From positions 1 to 30,598 of IMG/VR virus record IMGVR_UViG_3300031876_000239: 30,598 bases of DNA, one strand, 5' to 3'. How positions within the stretch are numbered: position 1 is the stretch's first letter; each line of letters starts with the position of its first letter. The position numbers and the translations under genes are program-made. The notes under the pieces were generated by a model that searched no databases, was not told where the DNA came from, and worked only from the letters and a program-made list of their open reading frames with translations. The stretch comes from a virus. Shown one piece after another: positions 3,676 through 24,398 of the stretch.

Positions 3676-5136
3676 TCAACTTTCACCAAAGCGACCACCC
3701 CCATTTATCCGAGACCAAAACAAATAAACTTTCGACTGCGCCAAAAAAGCAAGCCTCTTCAAAGCAGCGGCCAAACCTTCCTCATCCAACCCTCTAACCT
3801 TCTCCACAAAATCCCTCTGGCTCGGATACACCCTTCCAGAACCCACAAGCCTTTTCCGCACAGAACCCTCCTTCCGCGACAGCTCCTCAAGAACCTCCAC
3901 CACCCTCCCTTTTCCAACAAGCTTAATCTTGCACAAGTTTTGACTCACACTCCCCAACATCACAGGATCAAAACCCAACCCCCGCAACAACTCAATAGCA
4001 CCCAACACATCCTCACTCGGCTTACTCTCCACCACCTTTCGCATACCAGCCTTCTCAAAAAAAGGATTATACCTCGCCATAACAGCCAACGTCTCAACAC
4101 ATGGCGTTCCAGCCAACGGCAAAGTTTCCTTAACAAGCTTTACACCCAGACCCGTTGACCTATACTTCGGATGCACAATAACCCTCGTTATCGTACTCAC
4201 CTCCCTCTGCAGACGTTCGAAATCACCCTTCCAAACCCTACTCCTACCAACCATAAAAGGCGGCGGACAACCATACACAATCACACCACAAACCTCATCT
4301 TTACGCATCAACCTGAAAATCTTACGCGGCGGCGAACACCTACTTCCCCTATAATGAAAAACACTAAGCCTCTTATAATCCGCAAAAACCCCTTCCTCAA
4401 CCCGCACATCCCTTACGAGACTACACTCCTCAGCCAAAACATTCGCAAAATAATTCACAATCACCTCCCTCCCAAAACGCTTATGAACATGCACACTAGG
4501 CCTAAAATCCTCAAAAAGATCCACATGAGTCGTAGCCGCAATCACAGCCTTTCCATCCCGCCTCGCAACCTTCTGAACATTAAAAGCCACAATCTTAGCC
4601 GTATCACGATCAAGCACAGAACAAAACTCATCCATAACCCACCACTGCCTACCAGACTCCATCAACTTGGCTAAACAGTAACGATATTTCTGTCCATCGC
4701 TCAGCTCGTTGTACCTTCTGAGAAACAGAAATGCATCATTTAGGCCCACTTTCGTTAATAGTTCAAGGGCTTTGTTGAACGTTTTGCCAATGGTGTCGAT
4801 TATCGATTTGTCTTCATCTACGCGCATTTCCATGCTGTCTAAGGCTTCTCGAGCTAGATCTTGCTTTATGGCTTTTAAAAGGACGCTTTTGCCTGAGCCT
4901 GAGTCGCCGGTTATGAGGATTATGTCTGTTGGTGCGATTTTAAGTTCGACGTTGTCGTATAAGATGAATTTTTGGGTTTGATCTATGCCTAAGCCGAAGG
5001 CTTCTGCGACGTTTTTTGTCCGTGGCGTTATGGTTGTCGTTGTTTCATAGGCTATGTTAAAGGTGAATTTGCCTGTTTTGCGGTTGTATGTTCTTGCAAG
5101 TTTTGTGATTTTGAAGTATTCGTGTCTGCGCGTCAT
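3676..5136 (-). CDS. ABC-type ATPase fused to GNAT acetyltransferase (COG2401 type)
   Basis: A 486-aa soluble ATPase-acetyltransferase fusion. The ATPase half has Walker A G-D-S-G-S-G-K-S (77-84), an ABC signature L-S-D-G-Q (145-149), Walker B W-W-V-M-D-E-F (165-171, with catalytic Glu170) and a switch His at about 204. The GNAT half (about 240-375) has V-I-V-H-P-K-Y-R-S-T-G-L-G, the acetyl-CoA pyrophosphate-binding turn, and F-F-E-K-A-G-M. No transmembrane segment is present, so it is not a transporter. The ATG overlaps the TerL stop by four bases (ATGA), so the two are translationally coupled. The reading frame is open far upstream of this ATG, but that part runs antisense to TerL and was discarded. 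The biochemical role is unknown; the context suggests DNA packaging or genome modification. Strand composition changes sharply near codon 150. Confidence 0.88.
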   Translation of the reverse strand: MTRRHEYFKITKLARTYNRKTGKFTFNIAYETTTTITPRTKNVAEAFGLGIDQTQKFILYDNVELKIAPTDIILITGDSGSGKSVLLKAIKQDLAREALDSMEMRVDEDKSIIDTIGKTFNKALELLTKVGLNDAFLFLRRYNELSDGQKYRYCLAKLMESGRQWWVMDEFCSVLDRDTAKIVAFNVQKVARRDGKAVIAATTHVDLFEDFRPSVHVHKRFGREVIVNYFANVLAEECSLVRDVRVEEGVFADYKRLSVFHYRGSRCSPPRKIFRLMRKDEVCGVIVYGCPPPFMVGRSRVWKGDFERLQREVSTITRVIVHPKYRSTGLGVKLVKETLPLAGTPCVETLAVMARYNPFFEKAGMRKVVESKPSEDVLGAIELLRGLGFDPVMLGSVSQNLCKIKLVGKGRVVEVLEELSRKEGSVRKRLVGSGRVYPSQRDFVEKVRGLDEEGLAAALKRLAFLAQSKVYLFWSRINGGGRFGES

Positions 5137-16094: not shown

Positions 16095-17683
16095 CAAATC
16101 ACCGTCGCAACTTTGTGTCTGCTGAGATGGTCTGTTTTACTTCGCAGAGCGTATAGGTAATCAGCCAGAAGAGGCGTTTCCCTTCCCAGTTCCAAAGTTA
16201 TCTCAAGAGTTTGCGTGCTAGCATGTACGTGGTATTCTACGCTTAGAATGCGGAAGTCGGCGTCCACATTCTCGTTTGGAAGAACTACGTGAATCTTGCC
16301 TCCAGGCAGAATTGGAGTATTTCCGTAGTCGATTATTGTGCTTCGCACTGCTATGTGCTCGGCAGGGTTTTTAAGATGATTGAGAATCGCCTTCGCTCTG
16401 AGCGCACACTCATTATCTGTGTAAAGTTCCTCATCAACATCAACAAGCTCCCTTAATCCATAATCTGCTTGGCTCGCGCTGTCTTCTTCCGTTGCGCTGT
16501 AGCGTCTTCCACCGAAAAATAAACCGTCAATCCAGAAGTTTCCCGTGCCAGCTACGCTGAAATTACAGTCAAATCTTATTTTCTTTATGTTTGCCCAATC
16601 GAAACCACCCTGAACATTCCATGCATCTGCATTTGAGCTGCCAACTTTCAACTGTCTTTGGAACCATTCGTCAGCTCCTATAGTCAACACGTAAGCTGCG
16701 CTTTTGTCTGCAGTATCGTAGAGAGTCACTTGGACATTCCCATTGAAACTGCTTTCAAGCCTAAACCAAAAGCTCAAAACAGAATAAAGATTACAGTCGA
16801 CTTCCTTGCCACTGTTCAACGTTAATTGGCATGAAGCGTAATAAAGATTTTGAGCATACGTTTTGATGCTTCCACCGCCCTTCAGTTTTGTTGTTGTGTC
16901 GAGGCTTATTTCGCCTGAAACTGCACTCCAAGAACCGTCTGCGGGTATTAGGCTTTCAGTCCAAGCGTCCTTGTCTGATGGGACAGACTTGTCGGCAGCG
17001 CCATAAACTGTGACTTTGTTTCTCACGTTGTGAATGTCCTTACTGTATTCGCTGGCTTCAATTTTCTCGCTGAGAATCAAAGACGAAGTCTTGCTGTTCC
17101 GTGGGAAAAATTCAAATTTCCCATCAGGTGCAACACGAAAATCGAAGGCTATCACGCCAGCTTTGTCTGCGCTTCCAGCGACAAATTTCAAGATTTCGAA
17201 GACAGGCGTATTCTCGTATTCCAGTTGGGTGTAAGTCGTGTCCGTGTTTTCTATAAGCTCTGTTGAATCGCGAACATGGCTGAGACGCACGAAGTAGTCA
17301 ATCAAGTCTTTAACGATTTCTTCGCCTTTCCTGTTTTCGTAGGCTTCGGTCACAACCCTTCGGAAAAGGCGTTCGCCCCAACATCGTCCACTAACACGAA
17401 CATAGTGTTCAACTGGTGTCGACTCGTATTTGACGTTTTCAACATGGCACGTTATGATCTGCGGAACACTTGAGCCTCTTCCAATGTCTATGTGCCCGTC
17501 CATGCCAACAGCAATCGGATAAGACCCACCTTGGCTGTACTTCTCATCCCAATTTTGCAGAAGGCACTCAAAACTGCTCACTTCATTTGTGCAGCCCAAA
17601 TGCACATGCAAATCTACAACATCACCTTGAGGTGGAGCCACAGAGCCAAAAGCAATAGAAACTTTTGGAACTTCAACGCTCAC
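16094..17683 (-). CDS. Baseplate hub protein with inserted jelly-roll (CBM-like) domain
   Basis: A 529-aa protein of the gp27/XkdQ/gpD-type hub class that closes the tail tube and anchors the fibres. Residues 1-230 (V-D-L-H-V-H-L-G, C-H-V-E-N-V, V-R-V-S-G-R-C-W-G) and 400-529 (A-L-R-A-K-A-I-L, G-N-T-P-I-L-P-G-G-K-I-H-V-V, F-R-I-L-S-V-E-Y) fit the split hub fold. Between them, ~240-395 looks like a galactose-binding/CBM jelly roll: S-I-K-T-Y-A, L-S-F-W-F-R-L, V-Q-V-T-L-Y-D-T-A-D, F-W-I-D-G-L-F-F-G-G. The start is GTG, overlapping the previous stop by one base. The insertion suggests a glycan-binding surface on the baseplate. Confidence 0.78.
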   Translation of the reverse strand: MSVEVPKVSIAFGSVAPPQGDVVDLHVHLGCTNEVSSFECLLQNWDEKYSQGGSYPIAVGMDGHIDIGRGSSVPQIITCHVENVKYESTPVEHYVRVSGRCWGERLFRRVVTEAYENRKGEEIVKDLIDYFVRLSHVRDSTELIENTDTTYTQLEYENTPVFEILKFVAGSADKAGVIAFDFRVAPDGKFEFFPRNSKTSSLILSEKIEASEYSKDIHNVRNKVTVYGAADKSVPSDKDAWTESLIPADGSWSAVSGEISLDTTTKLKGGGSIKTYAQNLYYASCQLTLNSGKEVDCNLYSVLSFWFRLESSFNGNVQVTLYDTADKSAAYVLTIGADEWFQRQLKVGSSNADAWNVQGGFDWANIKKIRFDCNFSVAGTGNFWIDGLFFGGRRYSATEEDSASQADYGLRELVDVDEELYTDNECALRAKAILNHLKNPAEHIAVRSTIIDYGNTPILPGGKIHVVLPNENVDADFRILSVEYHVHASTQTLEITLELGRETPLLADYLYALRSKTDHLSRHKVATVI

Positions 17684-18228
17684 TATTCAACACCCCGCCT
17701 ATACATTGCTTCCTCCTCGCCACTCCGCCGAACACTACGACCATAAGTGGGTATCTCAGAAGCCACCTCATTGAAGCCTCTAACACTTGCGGTTGCCGCA
17801 TTCATTTGACTGGCAAAGTGCCACATCGCAGCAGCAGCCGCAATTATCACGCCTATACCTACGCCTGTCAGAGCAAGAAAAGTCGCATAACTGATGTTCA
17901 ATGCATTTTGAGCTGCAGCTGCAATCCAACAAGCAGCTGAATAAGCTTTCTGAGCCACGGCAACCCCCCAGCTTGTCCGCATAAACATGCCCATTACCGA
18001 GAGGATCATCATGGCTGAGTTGAACACTCGGGCTTGCTGATCGTTCAGTAAGCCAAATTGATGAGCTATGTGTCCAATAGCAGTGCCAGTGGCTCCCAAA
18101 CCAGCTATGGCTGCACCGACACTCTTAATTCGCACCGACAAGGCTTCAGCGTCGGACTGGATTCTTGCAAACTCATGGCTGGCACGATTAACAGCCCTTA
18201 TGGTGACCGCGATCTCACGGAAAGCCAC
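17683..18228 (-). CDS. Very short tape measure protein
   Basis: A 181-aa protein with typical tape measure features: an N-terminal helix containing V-N-R-A-S-H-E-F-A-R-I, an Ala/Gly-rich region, a F-G-L-L-N-D-Q-Q-A-R-V-F segment, and hydrophobic helices (about 68-86, 98-112 and 116-136) that would enter the host membrane at ejection. Its length is a small fraction of the 600-1500 aa usual in siphoviruses. At about 0.15 nm per residue it predicts a tail near 27 nm. The start is GTG, overlapping the previous stop codon by one base. Alternative: only the C-terminal module of a split gene, but the neighbours leave no room. Confidence 0.68.
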   Translation of the reverse strand: MAFREIAVTIRAVNRASHEFARIQSDAEALSVRIKSVGAAIAGLGATGTAIGHIAHQFGLLNDQQARVFNSAMMILSVMGMFMRTSWGVAVAQKAYSAACWIAAAAQNALNISYATFLALTGVGIGVIIAAAAAMWHFASQMNAATASVRGFNEVASEIPTYGRSVRRSGEEEAMYRRGVE

Positions 18229-18596
18229 TATGATCCAGCCTCCGCCTTAGCCATGTCAAGAGCCTCCAGTATTGTGTTCTCAAGTGTGGGCAAATACTTC
18301 TGGATTGCTGGGTAAAGGTAGGGGCGTGCCCTCACGTAGCGAGTGCCCATCTCAACAAACAAGGCATAAGCAGCTTCAGCACCAACCTCTGCAACCCACT
18401 CGCTAATTCTGGCGTAAATTGTACTCCTCAAGTGTCCTGTTCGCACAGGAACGATTTGCTTCGCCAAAGATTCAACATCTGCAGCCCAGCTTGCCAACTG
18501 TTGATGAACTTGTCTTTGCATGCTAGAATCGAGGTGCTCCATTGAAGCCTTGAACTCTTCAACGCCCTCAACATCACATTTTATCTCGATCGCCAC
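18228..18596 (-). CDS. HK97 gp10-like head-tail/tail completion protein
   Basis: A 122-aa protein with the family core V-P-V-R-T-G-H-L-R-S-T-I (50-61), a V-G-A-E-A-A-Y-A-L-F-V-E-M-G-T-R-Y (71-87) strand and R-A-R-P-Y-L-Y-P-A-I (89-98). HK97 gp10-type proteins complete the neck or tail end. Its usual place is before the tail tube, but here it sits after the chaperone and directly before the tape measure. The start is GTG; the -1 frameshift extension of the upstream gene ends 16 nt inside it. Confidence 0.85.
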   Translation of the reverse strand: MAIEIKCDVEGVEEFKASMEHLDSSMQRQVHQQLASWAADVESLAKQIVPVRTGHLRSTIYARISEWVAEVGAEAAYALFVEMGTRYVRARPYLYPAIQKYLPTLENTILEALDMAKAEAGS

Positions 18597-19116
18597 TTTG
18601 CCTCCCTCTCCGTTTTCAACCGTTCTTCCTCCGCTTGCCTGTCCATTTCATTCAAAATCAAAATGAACTGTTGGATGGTCTTGGCTGACTGTCTAGCAAG
18701 GTGTTCTGGTGTCCAGCCGAACTCTTTGCACAGCCTATATTCTGTGAGCGCTGGGTGTGGTCTTCCTCTCCGGATCGCTCCAATAAAAAACGTTGTTCTT
18801 CAACCGTTACGCTGTTAAGCCTATTCACGATTTCGCTGAATAGTTCGCCCAACTCTATGGGTACGCCGTCTTCGTCGCTTAGCAGCTTCTCTAGAGTGAT
18901 CGGTTTATGTTGAGGTTGCTGTTTCAGGCTCGCCCAGATGGTTTCAGCTTGAATAGCCACATAATCGCTGCTTTGAATGTGCCCTGTCATCTGGCTGTAT
19001 TTTGTGTATTTCTGAATTATTCGGCTGCGCTTAGCCCAAGATATCTCATGAAAAACGTAGCTTCCTGCATACTGCTTGCCAAACCGCTCATCGAGCTCTA
19101 GAACTTGCGTTCGCAT
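18581..19116 (-). CDS. Tail assembly chaperone, -1 frameshift product (gpGT-like)
   Basis: If ribosomes slip by -1 on TTTTTTA at 18784-18790, translation leaves the 152-aa frame after codon 111 and adds 67 residues, to TAA at 18581-18583 (178 aa total). The extension reads like a real folded segment: L-T-E-Y-R-L-C-K-E-F-G-W-T-P-E-H-L, then Q-Q-F-I-L-I-L-N-E-M-D-R-Q-A-E-E-E. T-E-x-R-L-C-x-E-F-G-W is common in C-terminal parts of tail chaperones. By contrast, the zero-frame tail after codon 111 is Ser/Gln-rich and featureless. The gene lies between tail tube and tape measure, the classic place of lambda G/GT. The long form would bring tape measure and tube together. Confidence 0.8.
18658..19116 (-). 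CDS. Tail assembly chaperone, zero-frame product (gpG-like)
   Basis: The 152-aa unshifted form. Residues 1-60 are mixed beta/helix (V-L-E-L-D-E-R-F-G, S-W-A-K-R-S-R-I-I-Q-K-Y) and 70-108 helical with an acidic patch. After codon 111 the sequence (S-G-E-E-D-H-T-Q-R-S-Q-N) is low-complexity. The ATG has an AGGAGG about eight bases upstream. In phages the short form is made in excess over the shifted form. The tail tube gene ends 11 bp upstream. Confidence 0.75.
   Translation of the reverse strand: MRTQVLELDERFGKQYAGSYVFHEISWAKRSRIIQKYTKYSQMTGHIQSSDYVAIQAETIWASLKQQPQHKPITLEKLLSDEDGVPIELGELFSEIVNRLNSVTVEEQRFLLERSGEEDHTQRSQNIGCAKSSAGHQNTLLDSQPRPSNSSF
18784..18790 (-). promoter_or_regulatory. TTTTTTA slippery heptamer (-1 programmed frameshift site)
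   Basis: On the minus strand the codons read CG-T TTT TTA TTG, so T-TTT-TTA is in exact X-XXY-YYZ register with the zero frame (codons 109-111). Both tRNAs can re-pair with TTT/TTT after a -1 slip. About 5 nt downstream GAGCG can pair with CGCTC across a ~26-nt loop, a possible weak stimulator. Confidence 0.78.
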
Positions 19117-19127
19117 GATTGAGCCTC

Positions 19128-19988
19128 CTAGCTAATCGTAACTGGACCCTTGGCTACAAAAGATGCCTTTAGCGCGATCAAATCTTCGATGCGTACTGGT
19201 GTAGACACATTTTCCCATTTACATTCAGTGAAAACGGCTTTGTTGGAGCCTCCGAGACCAAACTCTAAGTCAAAAGCGGTGTCGTTGACAACATCATCGA
19301 ATTCCTCTTTGCTCTCAAACTCGAAAGTCAGCTCGCCTGTTAGGCTTCTGTGGCGGTATGGCAAATACTTTAGAAGATGACCGTTTGTCGAGCGGATGAC
19401 AGGCACTTGTTTCAGGTTGTTTTCTATTGTGAATTTCCAGTCTGACACTCGGTCGAGAACGGTCGTTGCCTTTTTAACATAGCTTTCATTGAACACAACT
19501 GCTCCAGCATATTCTGCGTAGGTTGCTCCGGTGATCTTTGCCGTTCCCACTGTCATGTTTTGCCCAGTGAGTTCAGCATTCGCCTTAACAACATCTTCTA
19601 TGCTACATTCAACAGTTACTTTCTGGAATCTGCAGCCTGTGAAAAGAAGCGAAACAATGTCTGTGGCTGAAGCAAAGACTCCTTTGTAGTATAAGGCTTG
19701 GATGCTTAGAGACTTGTTCAGTTCAGCCTTTGCATATTGGAGAAAATTGATCGGCGCATCGCTTGGAAGCGGATAGGAAACTTTCAGGCTGGCATCTCTT
19801 AAGCCTTTCTTAACAGCTTGCAGGTCTATGTTGCCCAAGCCTCGAAGCCTAATGTTACTTGGGTTTACGGATGGTTCTATGCTTTCGGCTGGGATGCCAA
19901 GCATCGAGGGGTTTGTTGGAGTTGTGCCGTAAGCGGCTTCTTCCACGTAGTATATGCGGCTTTCGTGTGCACCATAGGTTTCAACCAT
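19128..19988 (-). CDS. Major tail (tube) protein
   Basis: A 286-aa protein, assigned by order (just before the chaperone and tape measure) and sequence. The N-terminus E-S-R-I-Y-Y-V-E-E-A-A-Y-G-T-T-P is typical of tail tube proteins. Alternating beta-strands follow (S-L-K-V-S-Y-P-L, K-V-T-V-E-C-S-I-E-D, W-K-F-T-I-E-N-N, G-E-L-T-F-E-F-E), as in the tube beta-sandwich. It forms hexameric rings stacked to the length set by the tape measure. A strong RBS (AAAGGAG) precedes the ATG. No contractile sheath gene was found, so a siphovirus-type tail is likely. Confidence 0.82.
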   Translation of the reverse strand: MVETYGAHESRIYYVEEAAYGTTPTNPSMLGIPAESIEPSVNPSNIRLRGLGNIDLQAVKKGLRDASLKVSYPLPSDAPINFLQYAKAELNKSLSIQALYYKGVFASATDIVSLLFTGCRFQKVTVECSIEDVVKANAELTGQNMTVGTAKITGATYAEYAGAVVFNESYVKKATTVLDRVSDWKFTIENNLKQVPVIRSTNGHLLKYLPYRHRSLTGELTFEFESKEEFDDVVNDTAFDLEFGLGGSNKAVFTECKWENVSTPVRIEDLIALKASFVAKGPVTIS

Positions 19989-20004: not shown

Positions 20005-20991
20005 TTAGAGCATTCCTCCTAAGTTTTCAAAGTACCATGATTTGAGAAAGAATTCAGTTCTAAAGATGAATGGTTTAACTCGCACTTCGTCAGCGTCTCG
20101 AAAACTTGCGATGTCAAGGTATGTTATGCCAATAACGGTGATTGTGCAACTCACGTAATCGCAGTAGAGTGTGGCTGCGGATGCTCCGTTGCTTGGATTT
20201 GTGGTTCTTGCTAGAAGCCAAACGTACCCTTCATTGTCTATGTAGTCTGGCAAGTCTGAAGCCAAAACAATCGTGATTGTCTCGTCTGCACCTGCAGTTC
20301 CAGATTGGGCGTTCTGCCAATCCTCTGCAGCATGGTTCCAGACCTTCACGGTTATTCCATTTCCAGCTGGAGCTGTGCCATAACCTTCAAAGGTTAAAAC
20401 AATTTTCTTAGCGGTTTGTTCTCGAGATTCAATTTTAAAGCAGAAAAGCGTAAGGGCATATTCCCCATCAACGGTATGGCTTTTGGAATAGCGACTTTCA
20501 TCGCTGTACCAGATCTTCTCATACTCAGCGTTTGTGAGCTCAGTCCATTCTGCGTGTCTAGGAGACAGCTCCGTTGATGCTCCAGCGTGAAACGCCTTGT
20601 GGCGGTTGTCTTCTAAGGAGCCTAAACCAGCAAAATCATATTCTGTCACGTTTGGTTTTTTACAGTTCTGCCTCACAACACGGTTTATCTCTTCAACGAT
20701 TTTGTTGCGCAGGAGTCTGCCTGAATCTGATGTTTCAGGTCTGTCGGTCGCCCAGACATTCAAACGCAAGGAGCCTAAACGCTTGCGGACTGTGCCAGAC
20801 ATTTCAATTTTCGTGTCTCTGCTTTCTACTAGGCCTACAGTAACTTGTCCATCATAAGTATTGAACAGTTCGCGGTTGCACCATTCTCTGCTTATGCAGA
20901 TTTTCGCAGTTGCACCGTCTTCTTTGATAACTTGCATTTTGTTGCTGAGAAGTCTAACAACTGTTGTCACGGGATCCTCAAGTTCACTCAT
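20005..20991 (-). CDS. Tail terminator/neck protein with jelly-roll insertion
   Basis: A 328-aa protein. Residues 1-130 resemble neck/tail-terminator proteins: D-P-V-T-T-V-V-R-L-L, K-I-C-I-S-R-E-W, T-V-G-L-V-E-S, V-R-K-R-L-G-S-L-R-L-N-V-W-A-T-D, then a helix R-N-K-I-V-E-E-I-N-R-V-V. Residues ~150-290 form a beta-sandwich (I-V-L-T-F-E-G-Y-G-T-A-P, V-K-V-W-N-H, Y-V-W-L-L-A-R-T-T) like carbohydrate-binding domains. The end (I-A-S-F-R-D-A-D-E-V, I-F-R-T-E-F) may rejoin the terminator fold. I chose the ATG at 20991, whose ATGA overlaps the previous stop; an upstream in-frame Met lies inside that gene. A plain terminator is ~130 aa, so the insertion is a clear addition. Confidence 0.65.
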   Translation of the reverse strand: MSELEDPVTTVVRLLSNKMQVIKEDGATAKICISREWCNRELFNTYDGQVTVGLVESRDTKIEMSGTVRKRLGSLRLNVWATDRPETSDSGRLLRNKIVEEINRVVRQNCKKPNVTEYDFAGLGSLEDNRHKAFHAGASTELSPRHAEWTELTNAEYEKIWYSDESRYSKSHTVDGEYALTLFCFKIESREQTAKKIVLTFEGYGTAPAGNGITVKVWNHAAEDWQNAQSGTAGADETITIVLASDLPDYIDNEGYVWLLARTTNPSNGASAATLYCDYVSCTITVIGITYLDIASFRDADEVRVKPFIFRTEFFLKSWYFENLGGML

Positions 20992-22379
20992 GTTCCCGTA
21001 AGCCTCCTGCACGAAGCCTTGAAGTAGGCTGTTTCGCCTTTGAAATCGAAGGCTTGAACGCCCAAAACCTCGTAATCTTGTCCTTTCCGTCTGATTCTGT
21101 CGTGCTGTCTCAAAGGAGTGAACGTGTAGACTGTGAGATAATCGTTTATCACATATCCAGGCTCCAACAAAACCTCATCCACGCGGACAGGAGAAACTTT
21201 GGCTAGAATGTCAATAGCCTCGCCATAAGTCACCTGGTCTCCTGTTTCGCGCACAGAGAAAAGAGTTACATTCTCGCCGAATTTACGCAAAATTTGCATT
21301 GTGCGAGTCAAGGGTACTTCGTAGTTGAGGTATAACAGACCGAGCCAGCAGACCGAAGCCATCGCCTGTTTATTTTCCACATAACTATAGTCGGCGTGTT
21401 TGATGCCCCAGAACATGAACTCGCTCTGGTGCTTGTCAATAATCTTCATACTGAACGTGAAGTTTGGCTTATCATGGTTTTTGCGAATTTTCCACAGAAT
21501 TCCAGCTGTAACTACATCATAGTAGTCGCAGGCTGCAGAACGTGAAATTACATCTATGTAGCCTGCCCAACAAATTGCAGGGTTGTATGCTGGGTATTGC
21601 GCAGATGCTCCGATGTTGTTTATGAAGTTGTAGGCTTTTTGAACTGTCAGACTCCAGCCTTCGTAATCGTATAGACCGACCAAAGCATAAGCGAATGGGT
21701 CGTCGTACACTTCATTTTCGGTCAAGCCGACACGATGCCAGCTTGAATCTGCAGGGTCGTAATGGAGCCAAATATTCTCAAAGCCTTCGCGAAGGAAACC
21801 AACAGCATTGGACATCATAGATTCGTACAAGCTTGCGTTTGCAGCATCGTACGTTTGAGCAAGCATTTTCAAGCCGACAACCCCGTACAAGCATTCAATG
21901 TCCATTTGAAGAAGCCACGCATCATCGATTGTGACGGCTCTTGCGAAGCCTCCGTAAGTCTGCTCGTCCTGCATTGTTTTCAGAAATGTCGCTCCTGCGA
22001 GTCTGGCGGAGTTCAGATAATCTGTATCATTGGTCAACTCGTAGGCTTTCAGAAGAGCGGGTATAACACGGCACGCGTCTACACTATAGTAGTATGTGCT
22101 TGTTTCGTTGCTCTTGAATGCGCCGTAGGCTTCTTTGGCGTTATCTGTGCACTGTTGAGTTAGAATCCAGTCTGCAAGCGACACAATCTTGCTGTAAATG
22201 GCATTTTTCCGATCTTCAAACTGTTTAGAAGAGTGGGCTTCATAAAGGAAGTCCATAGCGAAGGCTGCTGCGAAAGCAACTTTACCAAAAGTCGAATCAG
22301 GAGTGTTTGGCGGAATAACGTAAGCATAGGGCGCATAATCCATCACAAACTGATAATAGGCTTCCGGTACAGAGCCCAA
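20988..22379 (-). CDS. (alpha/alpha)-toroid enzyme-like domain fused to head closure protein
   Basis: A 463-aa fusion. Residues 1-355 look like an (alpha/alpha) toroid of the glycoside hydrolase / glucuronyl-epimerase type: repeated paired helices and loops (V-S-L-A-D-W-I-L-T-Q-Q, Y-Y-Y-S-V-D-A-C-R-V-I-P-A-L-L-K-A-Y, T-Y-G-G-F-A-R-A, G-L-K-M-L-A-Q-T-Y). Residues 356-463 resemble a phage head-tail joining (head closure) protein: I-L-R-K-F-G-E-N-V-T-L, then Q-H-D-R-I-R-R-K-G-Q-D-Y-E-V-L-G-V. The start is TTG with GGAG seven bases before it, just after the connector stop. It sits where a ~110-aa head closure gene is expected. The substrate and activity of the toroid are unknown. I do not know of such a fusion in described neck proteins. 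Confidence 0.68.
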   Translation of the reverse strand: MGSVPEAYYQFVMDYAPYAYVIPPNTPDSTFGKVAFAAAFAMDFLYEAHSSKQFEDRKNAIYSKIVSLADWILTQQCTDNAKEAYGAFKSNETSTYYYSVDACRVIPALLKAYELTNDTDYLNSARLAGATFLKTMQDEQTYGGFARAVTIDDAWLLQMDIECLYGVVGLKMLAQTYDAANASLYESMMSNAVGFLREGFENIWLHYDPADSSWHRVGLTENEVYDDPFAYALVGLYDYEGWSLTVQKAYNFINNIGASAQYPAYNPAICWAGYIDVISRSAACDYYDVVTAGILWKIRKNHDKPNFTFSMKIIDKHQSEFMFWGIKHADYSYVENKQAMASVCWLGLLYLNYEVPLTRTMQILRKFGENVTLFSVRETGDQVTYGEAIDILAKVSPVRVDEVLLEPGYVINDYLTVYTFTPLRQHDRIRRKGQDYEVLGVQAFDFKGETAYFKASCRRLTGT

Positions 22380-23522: not shown

Positions 23523-24398
23523 TCACCATCTTTTTCTTGGAATTCTTTTCTTCGTACATAAAATGACAAAAGTAGCAACAACAATGAGAAGAGGAAGTGT
23601 CAGTATCGACGGGAACTCTGGAATTATCTCTTCCATATAGAACGTATGAAGAACGTCAGCAATCAGATTTACGGCCAAGTTGAGTGATTCTCCACACCGG
23701 TTCTTGAACGTTGGATTGTTCCAGTCATAGTTTTGACTCATCCACACGCATGTCAAGTCTCCATCATCGTCGAAGGTTGTGTCAAAAGCAAGCTTTAGAG
23801 AAGCATTGTAAGCCGAAATTGTTTCTAAAACGCCGTCAAAGCTAAGGTAGACGTTAAAATCGTCACTGTAGCTTTCCGTTCGCCTGTCCACATAGCTTTC
23901 ATAATTGCCATGAACCGAATCATCTTCGCTTCCCCAAGCTGTTTCAGAACCCATCACGTGTCCATAAACCCCCAAGTCGCTAATGTAGTGACAAACCATA
24001 CCAAGTCTCCTCACGGCGCCTATTACGTCGCCAGCCCTGAGAAGATTCGATGCGTTGATGTATTCCTCTCTCGCTCTAACTGCAGAGTCATCTTCCTGCA
24101 CCGAGCCATTAGCGAAATAGTAAACATGATGTTTATCCTTGTCGCCAACGCCGTCTGGAATAGATCCGTTGTCAGGCAGCTCAGTCCCATACAAAAAACT
24201 TGCAAGATTGTCCAGAATGCACTGTTTCTCTTCATAAGGGAGCCAGTCCAAAGCATGGTGTGCAATCCAGTCATGCGTTCCATATTTAGGGTCAAACGGC
24301 TCACTGCTAGACCCGCCGTTGCTCCATCCATAAACAGAAACCGCATAGAACCTGAAAAGAAGCAAGACTGAAACTAGAAAAACAACTTTTTTTGGCAT
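23523..24398 (-). CDS. Secreted zinc-dependent phospholipase C-like protein, membrane-anchored
   Basis: A 291-aa protein of the zinc-dependent phospholipase C / S1-P1 nuclease fold. A signal peptide ends near 24, leaving Trp25 as the mature N-terminus, which in this family is a zinc ligand. Other ligands are visible: T-H-D-W-I-A-H-H (41-48), Y-G-T-E-L-P-D (70-76), K-H-H-V-Y-Y (89-94), C-H-Y-I-S-D-L (136-142), G-H-V (146-148) and H-G-N-Y-E (163-167). The C-terminus has I-P-E-F-P-S, a TM helix and K-K-R-I-P-R-K-R, an archaeal PEF-type sorting/anchoring tail. So it would act outside the cytoplasm on the lipid head groups or nucleic acids. Beside a holin-like gene inside the virion operon, a lysis role is plausible. 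Confidence 0.75.
   Translation of the reverse strand: MPKKVVFLVSVLLLFRFYAVSVYGWSNGGSSSEPFDPKYGTHDWIAHHALDWLPYEEKQCILDNLASFLYGTELPDNGSIPDGVGDKDKHHVYYFANGSVQEDDSAVRAREEYINASNLLRAGDVIGAVRRLGMVCHYISDLGVYGHVMGSETAWGSEDDSVHGNYESYVDRRTESYSDDFNVYLSFDGVLETISAYNASLKLAFDTTFDDDGDLTCVWMSQNYDWNNPTFKNRCGESLNLAVNLIADVLHTFYMEEIIPEFPSILTLPLLIVVATFVILCTKKRIPRKRW

Follow-up and report, generated by a model that had tools for sequence, protein, structure and literature searches.

The window analysed here is the whole 30,598-nucleotide stretch of IMG/VR virus record IMGVR_UViG_3300031876_000239. Its minus strand carries a 152-codon gene directly downstream of a tail tube gene (Table 1), with AGGAGG seven bases 5' of the start ATG at 19116 and a stop at 18658. 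Codons 109-111 of this gene read CGT TTT TTA (18790-18784) and hold the heptamer T_TTT_TTA in exact X_XXY_YYZ register. The initial annotation had placed a slippery heptamer at these codons without naming a strand; re-reading of the gene bears out the register and gives the strand as minus. The -1 frame opens at 18799, five codons ahead of the slip site, and closes at a TAA (18583-18581), and the 67 open codons and the predicted 178-aa fusion stand as previously reported. The first codon of the -1 frame segment, the T domain, re-reads the last base of the heptamer. Frame 0 encodes 111 amino acids up to the slip site and then a 41-codon tail rich in serine and glutamine. Selection to maintain this tail was considered and rejected: frame 0 stays open for 42 codons against 25 in synonymous simulations, but the unused third frame behaves likewise (35 against 21).

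Table 1. Features at the chaperone locus and in the adjoining genes of the window
Feature	Position	Strand	Basis
Tail tube gene, directly upstream of the chaperone gene	19128..19988	(-)	Phage_tube_2, E 2e-22
Frame-0 product, predicted G-type tail assembly chaperone, 152 aa	18658..19116	(-)	homologues in 101 further loci
G domain, codons 1-111, common to both predicted products	18784..19116	(-)	conservation and fold
TGA shutting the -1 frame just 5' of the slip site	18800..18802	(-)	
Putative slippery heptamer T_TTT_TTA, frame-0 register	18784..18790	(-)	
T domain, -1 frame, 67 codons plus TAA	18581..18784	(-)	phrog_9001, wobble pattern, CKEFGWTP
Next gene, HK97-gp10-like/tail completion, GTG start	18228..18596	(-)	profile matches
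181-aa ORF beyond the gp10-like gene, only tape-measure candidate	17683-18228		weak TMP and holin matches

A tail tube homologue is detected by tblastn in 96 loci, and the 181-aa ORF recurs as an ORF of 155-254 aa in 98. The match of this ORF to TMP_3 is weak and below the cut-off (E 0.009); it is a weak candidate for a tape measure and, if it were one, it would be very short, far below the usual length. The initial annotation had set the chaperone gene between tail tube and tape measure. The tail tube side of this placement stands, but on the other side the gp10-like gene intervenes and the tape measure is only a weak candidate. The final part of the T frame and the GTG start of the gp10-like gene overlap by 16 nt in the window (18581-18596), and 87 of 100 loci show an overlap of 4, 11 or 16 nt here. 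Because the T frame ends at this start codon, shifted ribosomes would stop at the start of the gp10-like gene. It is possible that the overlap couples translation of the gp10-like gene to shifted ribosomes; if so, the rate of slippage would set both the ratio of the two chaperone forms and the output of the tail completion protein.

Identity of the G and T domains

By sequence, the G domain matches no significant family in Pfam, PHROG or NCBIfam, and its identity therefore rests on its fold. Two sequence matches were discarded: Pfam Cmr2_N (E 0.13) lies far below the cut-off, and 3lax, the sole match in the PDB, is unconvincing at E 0.021. The domain has a mean column identity of 76% and gives an AlphaFold model with a pLDDT of 92.9. 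With moderate scores in both cases, this model aligns with YqbN (3klu; Z 8.7, rmsd 3.1, 87 residues aligned), which is encoded in a phage-like (PBSX/skin) set of tail genes, and with the tail assembly chaperone of HK97 (2ob9; Z 6.9, rmsd 3.8, 83 aligned). These two structures rank above all other solved chains listed for the model. Comparison with viral models (BFVD) returns the tail assembly chaperones of HCTV-1, HHTV-2 and Bacillus phage Gemini. The modelled structure supports a tail assembly chaperone fold for the G part.

The T domain is recognizable by sequence. It matches the tail assembly chaperone family phrog_9001 (E 4.6e-14), is 36-49% identical to chaperones of that family from the Bacillus phages Riggi and Jayan, and conserves the motif CKEFGWTP, which supports its assignment as a T-type tail chaperone domain. 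The chaperone identity proposed at the outset is thus upheld by fold for one part and by sequence family for the other.

Conservation of the slip site in relatives

Within the window the heptamer is not an unusual sequence. TTTTTTA occurs 13 times where 15.7 occurrences are expected, and the larger minus-strand ORFs contain 31 in-register XXXYYYZ heptamers in 5854 codons. At such chance frequency the argument from the single sequence is weak by itself, and the case rests on relatives. These were gathered by scanning IMG/VR with the fusion protein, from which the best 80 of 225 encoding stretches were taken, and by scanning GTDB genomes with an alignment, which yielded 22 loci. The latter comprise 20 from Bathyarchaeota, one from another archaeon and one, a close relative (L102), from a MAG labelled as the bacterium Bipolaricaulis, where a binning error is possible. 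Because 20 of these 22 reference-genome matches carry the Bathyarchaeota label, Bathyarchaeia are supported as the host group of the virus, and the archaeal host presumed from the window is supported, its relatives sitting in Bathyarchaeota genomes. The T domain is found in 37 of 257 genomes of this class.

The initial annotation had suggested a nucleotide alignment of relatives. In this alignment all 102 members, the window and 101 relatives aligned over their full length, retain both frames and an in-register heptamer at the same place. The heptamer is TTTTTTA in 80, TTTTTTG in 13, AAAAAAC in eight and AAAAAAT in one. Further loci from an IMG/VR scan with the T domain, which overlaps the first set, and from the 257 Bathyarchaeia genomes agree. 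In the other archaeon (L103/L109) the G protein is a different one, yet T_TTT_TTA again stands in register, and the -1 frame opens three codons before it. The G and T parts were not found in one continuous frame, an arrangement named beforehand as one that would speak against frameshifting, in any relative examined.

The nine members with an A6 run (L051, L057, L061, L080, L087-L090 and L101) keep the same phase as those with T6. When the slip residues are left out of the tree, seven of them group within the T6 members and L101, on a long branch, falls apart from these but nearby. The tree requires two changes of heptamer label under midpoint rooting, the only rooting applied, and the A6 site may have a single origin; the likeliest course suggested by this midpoint-rooted tree is that a T6 site gave way to an A6 site in the same phase. 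In six of the nine, frame 0 stops 0-4 codons past the heptamer, so that their conserved T part needs either a frame change or a new start. Early stops are also seen in a second, distant family of Bathyarchaeia chaperones (L222-L227): at each of the six loci examined, frame 0 stops directly or almost directly after A_AAA_AAA.

A sequencing error or a pseudogene could in principle split one continuous frame in this way, as homopolymers are prone to errors and any one contig might be wrong. This explanation, which deserves practically no credence, is refuted by the conservation seen across independent assemblies: the shift recurs in Bathyarchaeota genome assemblies as well as in 80 IMG/VR contigs, and six A6 members end frame 0 right past the heptamer.

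The slip site is also conserved beyond the level of its surroundings. In a T6 set dereplicated below 88% nucleotide identity (64 members), codon 110 is TTT in 64 of 64 against 51% TTT use across the gene, and codon 111 is TTA or TTG in 64 of 64 against a background of 40% of leucine codons, counts that are not phylogenetically independent and carry no p-value. Codon 109 varies among CGT, GCT, ACT, GTT, CTT, AAT and TCT in the same members, spanning seven amino acids and always ending in T. Synonymous conservation is highest at codon 110 among the 77 columns tested. A T6 set of 72 members has a median nucleotide identity of 68%. Pairwise variation 5' of the heptamer peaks at frame-0 position 3 (0.57-0.60), and from the heptamer on it peaks at frame-0 position 2, the wobble position of the -1 frame (0.43-0.55), while the first six bases of the heptamer are invariant. 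The wobble position switches from frame 0 to frame -1 at the heptamer in T6 and A6 members alike. Judged by these alignments, conservation of the slip site in relatives exceeds both chance and coding need.

Possible routes into the T frame

The conservation in relatives supports the control proposed initially for this archaeal virus. The locus very probably holds a programmed -1 ribosomal frameshift in a lambda G/GT-type chaperone gene of a tailed virus of Bathyarchaeia, with predicted G and G-T products. Most ribosomes would read through T_TTT_TTA and make the 152-aa G-type protein. A minority, with tRNA-Phe and tRNA-Leu on TTT-TTA, would move back by one base, both tRNAs re-pairing with TTT, and would go on to make the 178-aa G-T fusion. 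If the proteins act as in lambda, G present in excess would bind the tape measure protein and G-T would bring in the tail tube subunit; the ratio of G to G-T would then depend on how often ribosomes slip.

The same frames could be joined at the level of the transcript if RNA polymerase slipped on the T6 or A6 run, so that some mRNAs lose one base (or gain two) and the T frame is then read normally. All sites of the Bathyarchaeia families are indeed homopolymers of A or T, six or seven long, and longer A runs occur at the junction in more distant viral contigs. But the runs are mostly six long and so fall short of published slippage motifs (An with n>7, Tn with n>8, as cited in PMC3711429). Polymerase slippage also needs no codon phase, yet the X_XXY_YYZ phase is exact in every member and codon 109 keeps its wobble T. 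The strict phase, this wobble T and the short runs together favour the ribosome over RNA polymerase as the agent that slips, and transcriptional slippage is an improbable account of the family. It is more plausible in four distant viral contigs that share the T-type domain (L114-L117), where the A runs at the frame junction are longer.

Alternatively, the T part could be a separate gene, reached through an internal start or by termination-reinitiation. The A6 members offer an opening for this, with an ATG at T-frame codon +4 that, in at least one (L088), shares bases with the frame-0 stop (ATGA). Yet 80 of 102 members lack any ATG, GTG or TTG in the -1 frame at or before T residue 15, and in T6 members, the window among them, a start ahead of the conserved region is usually missing. 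A separate gene would also leave the absolute conservation of TTT, of TTA/TTG and of the wobble T unexplained, and the T-frame residues between the slip site and the A6 ATG are conserved too. Independent translation of the T part is accordingly very hard to sustain, and ribosomal frameshifting is retained as the preferred reading.

Stimulatory elements shared across the family were sought around the heptamer. Downstream of the heptamer, T6 members share no conserved RNA structure (the alifold score is -0.96, and shuffled columns give -0.34 +/- 0.62), and upstream of it no uniform Shine-Dalgarno-like element is present in 73 sequences. GAGG or AGGA does stand 6-7 nt 5' of the heptamer in about one third of these 73, but as a Shine-Dalgarno-like stimulator it was set aside: it is not uniform and plausibly reflects just glutamate codons. 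The nine A6 members have in common a candidate hairpin 6 nt past the heptamer. Its support is modest, with weak covariation (36 of 500 shuffles reach the score, overlapping coding constraint being left in). In the A6 lineages, the ATG at T-frame codon +4 and the shared candidate hairpin might each add to frameshifting or replace it. A broader scheme would combine a shift driven by the heptamer without conserved stimulators, coupling to the gp10-like gene, and replacement of the site in A6 lineages by one with a new hairpin and an early frame-0 stop; taken jointly, this combination is doubtful and is offered tentatively.

Relation to known frameshift systems

A frameshift in the tail chaperone gene is conserved in dsDNA phages, with G/GT of lambda as the model (Xu, Hendrix and Duda, 2004, as cited in PMC5009743 and PMC3711429). 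The window gene resembles lambda G/GT in lying just 3' of the tail tube gene, in having a predicted -1 shift near the end of G that adds a T domain, in the prediction of both products as tail chaperones, and in a G fold that resembles the HK97 chaperone. It differs in its archaeal host, in the heptamer T_TTT_TTA, in the 41-codon frame-0 tail after the slip site, in the HK97-gp10-like gene that comes next and in the very short putative tape measure. The Bacillus phages Riggi and Jayan have a homologous T domain and A_AAA_AAG in register at the homologous junction, but their hosts are bacterial, frame 0 stops immediately and each part is annotated as a gene of its own.

Archaeal precedents, which the initial annotation did not mention, come from haloarchaeal viruses. 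In PMC8211752 and PMC5009743, -1 shifts are given for HVTV-1 and HCTV-1, -2 and -5 and a +1 shift for HSTV-2, and Hardycor1 has the heptamer G_GGA_AAT (PMC7911831). Like the window virus, these are tailed viruses of archaea for which a -1 shift is predicted in the same gene. In HCTV-2 the heptamer is A_AAA_AAC, as in A6 lineages here, and the chaperone of HCTV-1 is a fold match to the G part. The other cited haloarchaeal sites are G_GGA_AAC, G_GGA_AAG and G_GGA_AAT, whereas sites in Bathyarchaeia viruses are all A/T homopolymers with T_TTT_TTA dominant. Chaperone frameshifting is therefore already known in haloarchaeal viruses, and the Bathyarchaeia viruses are a well-supported addition on comparative sequence grounds, one that would extend it to a further archaeal host group and in which the sequences give evidence that the slip site itself is under selection.

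Small tailed viruses of the same host class have been described, including Fuxiviridae and Kunpengviridae (PMC10848311) and 38 archaeal proviruses (PMC11705971). The provirus JAAKEZ010000002_pro of the latter study shares its assembly prefix with four loci of the present set (L082, L083, L085 and L096). Frameshifting goes unmentioned in the main texts of both papers. A literature search on frameshifting in Bathyarchaeia viruses, with most subscription papers outside its coverage and absence thus weak evidence, surfaced only PMC8211752. According to that 2021 review, cases of archaeal recoding are few: readthrough for selenocysteine and pyrrolysine, a -1 shift in a fucosidase gene and the haloviral cases. 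More than 100 natural variants at one place (T_TTT_TTA, T_TTT_TTG, A_AAA_AAC, A_AAA_AAT and A_AAA_AAA) would make the site preference of the archaeal ribosome testable, and annotations of these chaperone genes should join the two frames.

Three other genes of the window also gave domain matches. A 463-aa protein (20988-22379) has a borderline match to the C-terminus of D-glucuronyl C5-epimerase at residues 97-159 and the head-protein domain phrog_939 at its C-terminal end (residues 379-463), with homologues in 73 loci; it is apparently an enzyme-like domain fused to a head or connector protein. An ABC-type ATPase (3676-5100) that apparently includes a GNAT acetyltransferase domain adjoins the terminase large subunit and matches the phage ABC transporter families phrog_293 and phrog_886. 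A zinc-dependent phospholipase C-like protein (PF00882, E 7e-10) is encoded at 23523-24398, amid structural genes.
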